The translations under genes were made by a program, and so were the position numbers. Below the pieces are notes generated by a model. It was not told the DNA's origin. It did no database searches and saw only the letters and a list, made by a program, of their open reading frames with translations. Of a stretch of DNA of 24,760 bases, positions 2,266 through 10,311 are shown one piece after another. The number at the start of each line of letters is the position of its first letter. The first letter of the stretch is position 1. The DNA comes from a virus, in the IMG/VR virus record IMGVR_UViG_3300025853_000611, positions 1 to 24,760 of that record. One strand, given 5' to 3'.

Positions 2266-3325
2266 TCGCGGCTTTCAGCTAGTCTGGAAAGACAAAAAGA
2301 CCAACAACCTCGTTAGGCGGCAAGTACCGCCTGACATTATCGACCCGCAAGCCTATGCTATAAAGATGAACCCGCTTGTTGGGCGTGGCTTGCTGGACAT
2401 TGATAAGCGAAACTTCACCCTTGCCCGGCTTGCGCCAGAATATCATGCCTTGCTTGATGAACAGGTGCATAACTTTGTGCAAGGCCATAAGTATGCCGAC
2501 AAGATTCGCCCAGCGCGGCGAGATTGCGTTAAGTCGCACATTAAGTTGCACATATTGCCCGCCTTGGGTGATCAGCCTATTGATCGCATAGAGCCAATCG
2601 ACGTAGCCAACCTGCAAGATGATCTTCGGCAAATCATGCTGCCGCAAACCGTCAACCCGGTGATTGGCACTTTGTCTCGCATGATGAAGTTCTTTGTGCG
2701 GCGCGGGTATATCGACAGCAATCCATGCAGAGACATAGACCCGCTTCGGGCTGTAAAGTCTGACCCGCGTTATACTCCCAGCAAAGAGGAAGTAGAGCGT
2801 GTGATTGCGCAATGCTCAGGCTGGAAGAAAACTATGGTTATGCTGGCCGCTGGCACTGGTATGCGGATTAGCGAAATCTTGGCCTTGGAATGGAGCAATA
2901 TATCTGGCGATACGATTAGCATTGAGGCGGGCGTAGTTAAGGGCAACATAGGTGCGCCTAAGACGCGAGAAAGCCGCCGTAAGCTGCGCGTGGATGCTAG
3001 GCTCAAGGTTAGGCTGTCAGAAATGCGATTGCAAAGCACGGGTGCGTTTTTGTTCACCAATAAGAATGGCAGATTGTTTAGCTCAGTGGATGTGCTGAAC
3101 AGGGTGCTATACCCGGCGGTGGACAGGGCTGGTGTGCAGAAGTTTGGCTTTCATGGATTGCGCAGGTTTTACGAGAATGAGCTGGAAGCGCAGGGCGTTA
3201 GGAAAGATCATATACAGCGCTTGATGGGCCATGAGATTGGCAGCAAGGTGACTGACAAGCATTACCGTGTGGTGCGTCAGGAAGATGTGCTGCGGGATGA
3301 CTATGTGATAGAGGTGGGGGGTTAG
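2216..3325 (+). CDS. int: tyrosine site-specific integrase
   Basis: 369 residues from ATG 2216, with GAGGAG 7 nt upstream. The N-terminal region (1-60) resembles arm-type DNA-binding domains. A core-binding SAM-like helical domain (about 75-175) is followed by the catalytic domain. The catalytic set is visible: Arg217 (GTGMRISEIL), Lys in VVKGN, His313 and Arg316 (HGLRR), His339 (LMGHEIG) and nucleophile Tyr350 (KHYRV). It joins phage attP to the bacterial attB; the tRNA-Arg(CCU) segment 350 bp upstream is the likely crossover site. The gene overlaps the upstream small ORF and converges on the repressor gene, with the two stop regions overlapping by 4 nt. Confidence 0.95.
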   Translation: MPTILKLSNLRLYQSSDRGFQLVWKDKKTNNLVRRQVPPDIIDPQAYAIKMNPLVGRGLLDIDKRNFTLARLAPEYHALLDEQVHNFVQGHKYADKIRPARRDCVKSHIKLHILPALGDQPIDRIEPIDVANLQDDLRQIMLPQTVNPVIGTLSRMMKFFVRRGYIDSNPCRDIDPLRAVKSDPRYTPSKEEVERVIAQCSGWKKTMVMLAAGTGMRISEILALEWSNISGDTISIEAGVVKGNIGAPKTRESRRKLRVDARLKVRLSEMRLQSTGAFLFTNKNGRLFSSVDVLNRVLYPAVDRAGVQKFGFHGLRRFYENELEAQGVRKDHIQRLMGHEIGSKVTDKHYRVVRQEDVLRDDYVIEVGG

Positions 3326-3331
3326 CCCCCC
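3316..3331. repeat. G6/C6 hairpin at the convergent int and repressor stop codons
   Basis: GGGGGG (3316-3321), loop TTAG, CCCCCC (3326-3331). The loop encodes the integrase TAG on the plus strand and the repressor TAA on the minus strand. There is no T tract on either side, so it may act as an RNA 3'-end stabiliser or a factor-assisted bidirectional stop, not a classical terminator. Confidence 0.55.
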
Positions 3332-3984
3332 GACCTGCTTCTTTGACTGCCGACAACCACATGCACAGCATATAGATCGGCTTTGTTGAAATGCACAGGC
3401 TTACCGCTGCGCACATCTTGAGCAATAACTTTGTCTTCGGTAAGCTCTACAAGCTCACGAAAAATGCCCACGATTTTATCCTGTTGCTGGAACATTAGCA
3501 CAATGTCATCTTTTGGCTGTGCGTCCAGTGTAGGATCAACGAAGAGTGTATCGCCAGAAAAATACCTTGGTTCCATAACAGAGCCAAAATTCACGGCGGC
3601 ATAGGCTTCGCCTGAGTAATCTAAAAAGGATGGTTTTCTAATCTGCGTTTGTGCAGCATTACCTGCACGTAGAACAAAACCATCGCCTTTATCGAATGTT
3701 TGGCCCATTGATTGTTTCTCATTATAAAGCGGAATAAACACGGCTGTGCCTTGCGCTTGCGTAAATGACCGAAATGCTGGTTGCACTTCTGTAGCTTCAT
3801 CCATTAGTTCAGCTACGTTTACATTTAGCGCTTCTGCTATTCTCATCAGCTTATCGGCAGCGGGCGCTTTTATAATGCCCTTCTCGATTTTGCTAATGTT
3901 AGCTTGGCTAACCTTGCTTAGCTCCGCTAGTTGCTCCTGCGATACATTTAGTTCGCGTCTAATTTTGTACAGCTTTGTGTACAT
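3322..3984 (-). CDS. CI-like phage repressor (HTH plus S24/LexA-fold domain)
   Basis: 220 residues, leftward. An N-terminal HTH_3 domain (about 4-60, with VSQEQLAELSKVSQANISKIE) is followed by an S24-type C-terminal domain (about 100-210) with YAAVNFGSVMEPRYFSGDTL. It should bind operators in 3985-4381 and keep lysogeny, repressing the divergent Cro/early operon. The motif usually written GDSMEP reads GSVMEP here, so the residue before Met is Val136. The position of the catalytic Lys, after DDIVLMFQQQDKIV, appears to be Gly173. Self-cleavage may therefore be lost. The gene converges on int. Confidence 0.88.
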   Translation of the reverse strand: MYTKLYKIRRELNVSQEQLAELSKVSQANISKIEKGIIKAPAADKLMRIAEALNVNVAELMDEATEVQPAFRSFTQAQGTAVFIPLYNEKQSMGQTFDKGDGFVLRAGNAAQTQIRKPSFLDYSGEAYAAVNFGSVMEPRYFSGDTLFVDPTLDAQPKDDIVLMFQQQDKIVGIFRELVELTEDKVIAQDVRSGKPVHFNKADLYAVHVVVGSQRSRSGG

Positions 3985-8098: not shown

Positions 8099-9868
8099 AT
8101 GCCTGACTTTCCAGTCGCATACTGGTCGCAATACGGGCAGGCCATCATTAACCAGCTTGAGCTTAAAAAGCTTGCAGTTGGGGAATGGCATGGTGCCTGC
8201 CCGAATTGCGGCGGCAAGGATCGCTTCTGGATAAGCGAATATCAAAGCGAAGTTAAAGTGCATTGCCGACAGTGCAACGACTTCGCTGAAATACAAAAAG
8301 CACTAACCAGCATGGGTCTATGGCCCAGCAAAGATAATATTGTGCAGCTGAGGGATCGAGAAGTGCCTAATAATCAAGATTGGTTTGAGGATGACGCGCC
8401 CTACCACATAAGAAAAGGTGTAGAGCTGCACGGCGCTGTGCTGGATGGTAATACAGTGGTTGTGCCTCTGTTTAACGCGCAACGCGAAAAAGTAGGCCAC
8501 CAAAGAATAAGCCCGGATGGACAAAAACGCTTTTCCACAGGCCTAGCTAAAGATGGTGCCTTTGGCGTGTGCGGAAAAATAACGCACGGAAAAGCGTACA
8601 TATGCGAGGGTTGGGCCACAGCTTGTAGCGTTTACATGGCGCACCAAGAAGATGAACAATGCGCAGCTATATTTGCACTGGACGCTGGCAACCTGCCAAA
8701 GGTGTGCGAAGCGCTGCAAGAAGCCTTTCCAAAGCTTGAATTGGTTATAGCCGCAGATAATGACGAGCCGGGCATAAAAGCAGCCAAGGCCACAGGTAAA
8801 CCATACGCAGCGCCCGGCACAAAAGGGGCAGACTGGAATGACATACACGCAGCTTTAGGTGCAGCAGCGGTCAGACAAGGGCTGCGCGGGGCTAAAACCC
8901 CGGCAAAGCTGTTTACGCATGTGTCTGACATAGAGATGAAGCCGTCAGCGTGGCTTATCGAGGGTATGCTTGAGCAAGAGGCGCTAACCATGTGCTTTGG
9001 ATCGCCCGGCGCAGGCAAAACATTCGCTGTGCTGGATATGGCCATGTGTATCGCAGCAGGAAAAGCATGGCACGGCAAGGAAGTTGAGCAAGGGCTGGTG
9101 CTGTACATCGCTGGCGAGGGCCATGCAGGCTTTGCAAGACGGGTCGCAGCTTGGTCAAAGGTCAACGATGTAAGATTGGACGAGGTGCCGTTCTATAAGT
9201 CTAACTCAGCAGTCATAATGAATGACGAAACAGACGCCGAAGAATTGCAGCAAGAACTACAAAGTATAGCGGATAGCATCGGCAAGCCAAAGCTCATTGT
9301 GCTGGATACATTAGCAAGAACCATGATTGGCGATGAGAATAGCTCAGAGCGAGTCGGGGAATACATAAAGGCATTAGACAGCATAAAGCAGCAATATAAC
9401 TGCACAGTGCTAATCGTGCATCACACCGGGCATGGCAATCAAAACAGAGCTAGGGGTAGCTCAGTGCTTTACGGTGCGCTGGACGCTGAGTTTAAGGTCG
9501 GCACATGGGGAGACAACAAGGTGCTAATAGAAAGCACCAAAATGAAGGACGCAGAAGAACCCGAAGCAATGGCGTTTATCAAAATGCCAGTCGAGTTAGT
9601 AACACCAAACGGGGATGAAACTAGCTCGCTTGTGCTGGAGTATGTGCCAGACAAACCACGCAATAAGAAAGACCCGGATTACATTCGGCAGGTGATAATT
9701 GACCAGATCAGCACGGTGGATGCGTTCGGGGAAGCACAACGGGCAGACCTAAAAGAAGCTGTTGGGTTGGAGCTGGAATGCTCTCAGAGGACAGCAAATA
9801 GATACATCAAAAAGCTGATTGACGAGGGTGTTTTGGCCCAGCGCGGCGGTGCTGTGGTGGTGGCGTGA
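8099..9868 (+). CDS. bifunctional primase-helicase (zinc, TOPRIM, RecA-like ATPase)
   Basis: 589 residues. Zinc knuckle: Cys34, Cys37 (CPNCGGKDRFW), Cys56, Cys59 (HCRQC). TOPRIM primase domain about 160-250, with ICEGWATA (Glu170) and the DND motif in LVIAADNDEPG. RecA-fold helicase of the RepA/AAA_25 type from about 280, with Walker A GSPGAGKT (301-308), a Walker B-like LIVLDTLART and VLIVHHTGHG. A winged-helix-like end (QRTANRYIKKLIDEGVL) closes the protein. It primes and unwinds phage DNA, with host Pol III presumably doing synthesis because no polymerase is seen. It is followed by the iteron cluster. Confidence 0.93.
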   Translation: MPDFPVAYWSQYGQAIINQLELKKLAVGEWHGACPNCGGKDRFWISEYQSEVKVHCRQCNDFAEIQKALTSMGLWPSKDNIVQLRDREVPNNQDWFEDDAPYHIRKGVELHGAVLDGNTVVVPLFNAQREKVGHQRISPDGQKRFSTGLAKDGAFGVCGKITHGKAYICEGWATACSVYMAHQEDEQCAAIFALDAGNLPKVCEALQEAFPKLELVIAADNDEPGIKAAKATGKPYAAPGTKGADWNDIHAALGAAAVRQGLRGAKTPAKLFTHVSDIEMKPSAWLIEGMLEQEALTMCFGSPGAGKTFAVLDMAMCIAAGKAWHGKEVEQGLVLYIAGEGHAGFARRVAAWSKVNDVRLDEVPFYKSNSAVIMNDETDAEELQQELQSIADSIGKPKLIVLDTLARTMIGDENSSERVGEYIKALDSIKQQYNCTVLIVHHTGHGNQNRARGSSVLYGALDAEFKVGTWGDNKVLIESTKMKDAEEPEAMAFIKMPVELVTPNGDETSSLVLEYVPDKPRNKKDPDYIRQVIIDQISTVDAFGEAQRADLKEAVGLELECSQRTANRYIKKLIDEGVLAQRGGAVVVA

Positions 9869-10311
9869 AAATGGCCTCAGGACACGCTCAGGACAAAATA
9901 AAAAGGGGTTGTCCCGGCTGTCCTGAGGGTTTGTCCTCGTGTCCTGAGTTTTGTCCTGAGAAAGTTAAGCAAAAACAATGGTTTATAAAAGCTCAGGACA
10001 AACTCAGGACAGCGCTGGGACAAACACGGGTCACTATAAGGTCAGTCAGGACAAACCCCCTGTCTCTAGACAGGGGTTGTCCTGTCCTCAAGACCTGCCC
10101 GGAAAGAAGGAAAGATTATTCATTACTTGGTGAAAAAGAATTTCAATCTTTGCTGGAAGAAATCACCTGTCTTGCTGAATTAGAAGGCTTAGCCAATCGC
10201 AGGAAAATTCTTAACGCTCCGCAGCTCACCCGGTGGAATGAAAGCCAGCGCCAAATGCTGATCACCCGAAAGCTTGAATTGCAAAACATAAAGAAAGGGA
10301 AACGCAAATGA
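9865..10311 (+). CDS. hypothetical protein spanning the iteron region
   Basis: 148 codons from GTG 9865, overlapping the primase-helicase stop (GTGA). The first 75 residues are mostly a translation of the repeats (CPGCPEGLSSCPEFCPEK, SVRTNPLSLDRGCP), so this half may be a DNA element that has stayed open. The last 65 residues (DYSLLGEKEFQSLLEEITCLAELEG onward) look like a genuine charged helical domain. The next gene starts by an ATGA overlap, supporting translation at least to the end. A shorter product beginning downstream of the repeats is possible. No family recognised. Confidence 0.5.
   Translation: MKMASGHAQDKIKRGCPGCPEGLSSCPEFCPEKVKQKQWFIKAQDKLRTALGQTRVTIRSVRTNPLSLDRGCPVLKTCPERRKDYSLLGEKEFQSLLEEITCLAELEGLANRRKILNAPQLTRWNESQRQMLITRKLELQNIKKGKRK
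9877..10090. repeat. TCAGGACA iteron cluster, candidate replication origin
   Basis: The 8-mer TCAGGACA occurs on the plus strand at 9877, 9888, 9993, 10004 and 10046, and inverted (TGTCCTGA) at 9919, 9940 and 9952. Near copies lie at 9910, 9932, 10016, 10078 and 10083. Many neighbours are 9-13 bp apart, about one helical turn. The array sits directly after the primase-helicase gene and contains an A-rich segment (9961-9990) between two blocks. This is the layout of an iteron origin or primosome assembly site. Function inferred. Confidence 0.65.
10047..10084. repeat. long inverted repeat (cruciform/hairpin) in the iteron cluster
   Basis: CAGGACAA then ACCCCCTGTC, loop TCTA, then GACAGGGG and TTGTCCTG: an 8-bp inner and an 8-bp outer stem separated by a two-base bulge on the left arm (extra A and C). 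The outer arms are themselves iteron copies. It could extrude as a cruciform or form an ssDNA hairpin for primase loading. Confidence 0.75.

Follow-up and report, generated by a model that had tools for sequence, protein, structure and literature searches.

The 24,760 bp of virus DNA analysed here (the window, a linear fragment taken from a virus record) carries genes for an integrase, a CI-like repressor, recombination functions, a primase-helicase, terminase, portal and capsid, and directly downstream of the primase-helicase gene lies a dense array of short repeats in both orientations. What does this array do, and which protein reads it? The original prediction took it for an origin, or for a primase-recognition element, that belongs with the primase-helicase. 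The analysis supports that view: the array follows the helicase gene in most of its relatives, and the repeated word tracks the helicase's recognition helix. Sequence comparison, structural models and analogy with known systems make it highly probable that 9877–10090 is the iteron origin of a temperate phage, where the octamer TCAGGACA would be bound by the C-terminal winged helix of the upstream primase-helicase, which would load itself there.

The array spans 214 bp (9877–10090) immediately 3' of the T7-gp4-like primase-helicase gene; its first iteron begins 9 bp past the helicase stop codon, as in PICI and SaPI elements, whose arrays directly follow the initiator gene, and a 38-nt inverted repeat lies at its end. 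Exact octamers are found on the plus strand (TCAGGACA) at 9877–9884, 9888–9895, 9993–10000, 10004–10011 and 10046–10053, and on the minus strand (read as TGTCCTGA) at 9919–9926, 9940–9947 and 9952–9959. These eight are the only exact copies in the window, every one of them within 9877–10053; the shuffle expectation is 0.58, the maximum in shuffled sequence was three, and eight was reached in none of 100 shuffles. Sequence reading and counting add the partial iterons TGTCC at 9910–9914 and 9932–9936 (minus strand) and GGACA at 10018–10022 (plus strand), and two minus-strand iterons have one mismatch each, TGTCCTGT at 10078–10085 and TGTCCTCA at 10083–10090. The core GGACA/TGTCC accordingly occurs 13 times in the 250 bp from about 9880, and CAGGACA has nine copies in a 400-bp stretch, where no 7-mer of the shuffled window exceeds four. 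The eight exact copies and five variants first reported for these 214 bp are therefore confirmed against shuffled sequence. GC skew, which had been proposed as a check for an origin, makes no turn at the array across the fragment.

Homologues of the helicase were taken from virus contigs and bacterial genomes, and the stretch from –150 to +450 around each helicase stop codon was compared with control stretches of the same contig. In most relatives one short word, present on both strands, dominates this stretch and usually exceeds every control. The word is TCAGGACA in the window's own lineage, CCAAAGACAT in L012 and L013, TTGGACA in L016–L022, AGCGGGACA in L108, L125, L132 and Salipiger L182, TCGGACA in L123, GGTGAAGCGC in L126, CGTATGAA in L138–L158 and GCGAAGAAAT in L192, and enterobacterial elements have AAGTGGGGA, AAGTGAGGA, AAGTGCGGC, AAGTGCGCG and AAGTGGGTA. 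Isolated phages have such words as well: CRP-406 (CTGGAAAT), CRP-823 (CTACAAA), CRP-831 (TGTATAAA), Idiomarinaceae 1N2-2 (CGGTACA), Salicola CGphi29 (GGGGACA), Alteromonas PB15 (GGTTCA) and Rhizobium phage 16-3 (GCGTGACA). Copies inside one array agree and the word differs between lineages, so the whole array changes in concert, which points to a linked factor as its reader. A search beside homologous primase-helicases, set beforehand as a check, thus found an array after most relatives that have this C-terminal domain, with a differing word. A clear array is missing in a minority of the closer relatives (for example L113, L179, L214 and L217), and none follows the more distant AAA_25 helicases of Vibrio 1.210, Caulobacter GB2A, Baka, CRB2 and NBR1, so the rule belongs to a subfamily and not to all AAA_25 proteins.

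The primase-helicase (589 amino acids; 8099–9868, plus strand) has by Pfam a zinc ribbon (Zn_Ribbon_Prim), a Toprim_3 domain, an AAA_25 domain (E 2e-41) and a weak KaiC-ATPase match; Pfam finds no D5 or SF3 family in it, which sets it outside the P4 alpha family. The top Foldseek hits of its AlphaFold model are T7 gp4, Twinkle and RSF1010 RepA, and it is accordingly a RecA-fold, hexameric-type helicase joined to a Toprim primase. Residues 517–589 (9647–9865), modelled alone, are predicted to form a winged helix (mean pLDDT 89.8), with helices 1–3 followed by a two-stranded wing; the predicted recognition helix is residues 563–575 (SQRTANRYIKKLI) and the wing residues 579–588. A fold search of the PDB with this domain gave many winged-helix proteins (Z >8), all of them general matches to the fold with no specific relative among them.

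Co-variation suggests that this winged helix reads the array word sequence-specifically. In the enterobacterial relatives, which are about 35–40% identical to the window protein in the ATPase domain and lie outside its closest lineage, the recognition helix has the pattern [KR]XF.RW, and residue X tracks the base that follows AxTG: His is paired with G in 59 of 61, Asn with A in all 36, Lys with G in 17 of 21, and Gly, Ser or Ala with C in 14 of 15. The exceptions (His with A in L216/L217, Lys with C in L200/L204/L206) are mostly weak or decayed arrays. Across relatives the array word changes when the helicase tail domain does, almost one letter for one letter, so that a recognition rule can be read from the sequence. 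In a tree computed from the ATPase part, with the winged helix left out, there are 12 independent Asn/His contrasts, five of them on well-supported branches and all five concordant; a winged-helix tree built without residue X gives eight, of which three are supported and likewise concordant. Sign tests on five and three pairs cannot reach p 0.05, so the strength of these comparisons is their consistent agreement and not a p-value.

Closely related pairs point the same way. The winged helices of the closest natural pair, L244 and L253, differ by His/Asn and one Gly/Arg, and the L253 array is mixed (five A, three G), as if in transition. We note that L253, L255 and L178 all have mixed arrays, in which some words have A at base 5 and others G, and are possibly caught between specificities. 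The helicase motors of CRP-823 and CRP-831 are nearly identical, with diverged winged helices and different words (CTACAAA versus TGTATAAA), and in L283/L286 and L260/L273 the ATPase region is identical within each pair while winged helix and array both differ, so that these two appear to have been exchanged as a module; joint movement of reader and array would be the behaviour expected of a specificity module. The winged-helix codons adjoin the array, and co-inheritance by recombination is therefore possible and weakens the statistics; the independent contrasts reduce this concern but leave part of it.

The same co-variation bears on a different reading, that the array is an operator for the downstream genes, bound by a repressor, some other DNA-binding protein or an autorepressing helicase, and that replication starts elsewhere. 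Operators can take the form of short inverted words, the array is followed by an open frame and further genes, and the phage encodes a CI-like repressor (3322–3984). The word, however, tracks a residue of the helicase's own winged helix and not a repressor, neither a sigma-70 promoter nor any other promoter-like site was found in the array region, and proven origins are built likewise, with some 10–15 copies spread over 200–350 bp and an AT-rich core among them (PMC6092414). We consider an operator unlikely.

Returning to the iteron origin, the array has the internal order of one. The inverted sets at 9940–9959 and 9993–10011 flank a core of 80% A+T (9961–9990), a candidate melting site, which is the PICI/SaPI layout. 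Sites of the same orientation keep a period of about 10.75 bp (over 17 loci, some of them related, z is 6.4 relative to random placement), and the excess drops at neighbouring periods; such helical phasing is expected if proteins are aligned along one side of the helix. The core contains the IHF-like sequence ACAATGGTTTA (CAANNNNTTR). Among 33 loci the full-consensus IHF site is weak (three against 0.42 expected), CAANNNNTTR is present in 15 (8.2 expected) and AACAATNNNTTA in six (0.11 expected), several of these loci being related. A motif like ACAATnACTTA, which has the form CAANNNNTTR, lies beside the core in the window (9970–9985) and in L012, L125, L138, L149, L192 and L239, divergent phages, and we offer the IHF-like motif at the core as a suggestion. 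A further non-iteron element, approximately TGAAACCCGCGYCATTACTGG, is common to the origin of the E. coli PICI EcCICFT073 (L233, 9180–9215) and many enterobacterial AAA_25 arrays, where it is found about +100 to +240 past the helicase stop (L024, L027, L032, L040–L043, L054 and others). It spans different helicase families, the D5-type initiator of EcCICFT073 and AAA_25, and may serve host factor binding or priming.

The inverted repeat noticed at the end of the array (10047–10084) is real. Its left arm is the exact iteron at 10046–10053 and its right arm the one-mismatch iteron at 10078–10085, with the palindromic spacer CCCCTGTCTCTAGACAGGGG (10057–10076) inside this last inverted pair, and as single-stranded DNA 10040–10095 folds at –16.8 kcal/mol, with 16 bp in the stem and 4 nt in the loop (z –5.0; none of the shuffles was as stable). 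The letters of the spacer change by lineage and its palindromy is kept in most phage relatives (CATCCACATTCCTAAGAATGTGGATG, AAACCCTTTAGGGTTT and ACACCCCTATAGGGGTGT are examples). Pairing kept while sequence changes could mean that the locus serves single-strand initiation or primase recognition, with a functional hairpin and the repeats as decoration. The repeats too, however, are conserved, phased and co-varying with the helicase, and in enterobacterial members the array is present although such a palindrome is lacking, which makes a hairpin-only site quite improbable. Two other candidates were rejected. An RNA element is not indicated by Rfam, which gave only microRNA matches at chance level, well short of the gathering scores; as for an intrinsic terminator, the hairpin is terminator-like on the minus strand only, the overall number of terminator-like sites is close to that in shuffled sequence, and the T tract after the palindrome is missing in most relatives.

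The repeats had also been described as embedded in a gene, with an odd CP-rich peptide encoded across them. In the window the plus-strand frame is indeed open, from GTG 9865 or ATG 9871 to 10311, and the peptide is as described, but conservation does not extend across the array: in many relatives stop codons among the repeats interrupt the frame, which opens only at +31, +58, +63, +64, +90, +115 or later past the helicase stop. The CP-rich peptide is therefore not a conserved protein but a by-product of the repeats. The conserved part of the frame is C-terminal (..LEGLANRRKIL..) and downstream of the array; this small protein (10150–10311), for which Pfam and PHROG gave no match, follows the arrays of most marine relatives. 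That the repeats are simply coding sequence for a repetitive peptide, with no role as DNA, is scarcely credible: the frame is open in some relatives too and is annotated as a gene in CRP-406, but both strands carry copies, many relatives that share the array have a closed frame, and conservation of the peptide inside the array was looked for across the relatives and not seen.

From the architecture of the array and the proven case of EcCICFT073, we infer origin activity for this phage, and the following course of initiation is proposed. The octamer TCAGGACA would be bound by the recognition helix of the primase-helicase's winged helix, and the phased inverted sets on either side of the AT-rich core (about 9961–9990) would assemble helicase rings that face the core. 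The core would melt and the RecA-fold helicase-primase would be loaded there, with neither a separate initiator nor a separate loader. The terminal inverted pair, held by the variable palindrome, may fold as a hairpin or cruciform; on unwound DNA it would then offer an iteron in double-stranded form, where further loading or priming could take place.

Replicative helicases of the DnaB/T7-gp4 (RecA-fold) type usually need a separate initiator or loader; in these marine, rhizobial and enterobacterial phages and prophages the origin reader appears to be fused to the helicase-primase. The chances seem to us evenly balanced that they represent a widespread class with single-protein initiation, in which a self-loading RecA-fold primase-helicase follows a winged-helix residue-to-base rule (His or Lys with G, Asn with A, a small residue with C), winged helix and array evolve jointly and recombine as a specificity module, and a swappable palindrome inside an inverted iteron pair is a hairpin loading site. 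Repeated, matched changes of residue and base amount to a natural recognition code, so that for many phages whose replication start has yet to be located the sequence could serve to predict origins and incompatibility groups. The near-identical pairs CRP-823/CRP-831 and L244/L253 are natural material for specificity switching.

Several known proteins share parts of this design. The alpha protein of satellite P4 unites primase, helicase and a C-terminal DNA-binding domain in one chain and reads octamers in both orientations (ori/crr), but its helicase is of the SF3 type, whereas the window protein is AAA_25 plus Toprim. In T7 gp4 and RSF1010 RepA, by structure search, primase and helicase fold like those of the window protein; there origin recognition lies in other proteins or processes, RNA polymerase transcription in T7 and RepC in RSF1010, whereas here a predicted winged helix is fused to the helicase.

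Precedents in layout come from the SaPIs, SCCmec and the E. coli PICIs. A helicase that uses its C-terminal domain to bind iterons lying just 3' of its own gene is described for SaPIs and for SCCmec Cch2 (PMC7581432), and in EcCICFT073, whose order is pri-rep-ori, both rep and ori are needed for plasmid maintenance, the origin layout having been called peculiar to PICIs (PMC6092414). Read by the same detector, EcCICFT073 has GGTAGA 11 times after its primase gene, and none of 280 control stretches was as high. Given these precedents, a self-loading primase-helicase at an iteron origin is the simplest account of the window. Like PICI and SaPI origins, the array lies immediately 3' of the primase/rep gene, and its inverted iteron sets flank an AT-rich core; the PICI origin layout is evidently broader than the PICIs. 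The initiator of EcCICFT073 is D5_N/DUF5906 (P4-alpha-like) and Cch2 is a D5-type helicase, whereas the window's is a RecA-fold AAA_25 primase-helicase; a PICI, moreover, is a satellite that lacks a full virion gene set, whereas the window has genes of its own for terminase, portal and major head protein and so falls outside that class. We note that the constant half-word AAGTG of the enterobacterial arrays (for example L045, downstream of 3942) equals the published SCCmec Cch2 iteron (PMC7581432), a match that may be coincidental. In the Vibrio cholerae satellite PLE, the origin likewise co-varies with the DNA-binding domain of the initiator RepA, and the two are swapped as one module (PMC8263062); PLE RepA differs in belonging to the RepA_N family, in having three repeats of about 30 bp and in having no helicase fusion. 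An iteron origin read by a helicase domain is a known kind (SaPI/PICI/P4); what is new, in the open-access literature searched, is a RecA-fold helicase of the T7-gp4/RepA type, and not of the D5/SF3 type, that appears to have its own iteron reader, and the occurrence of such a system, with a visible residue-base code, in phages that carry their own virion genes.
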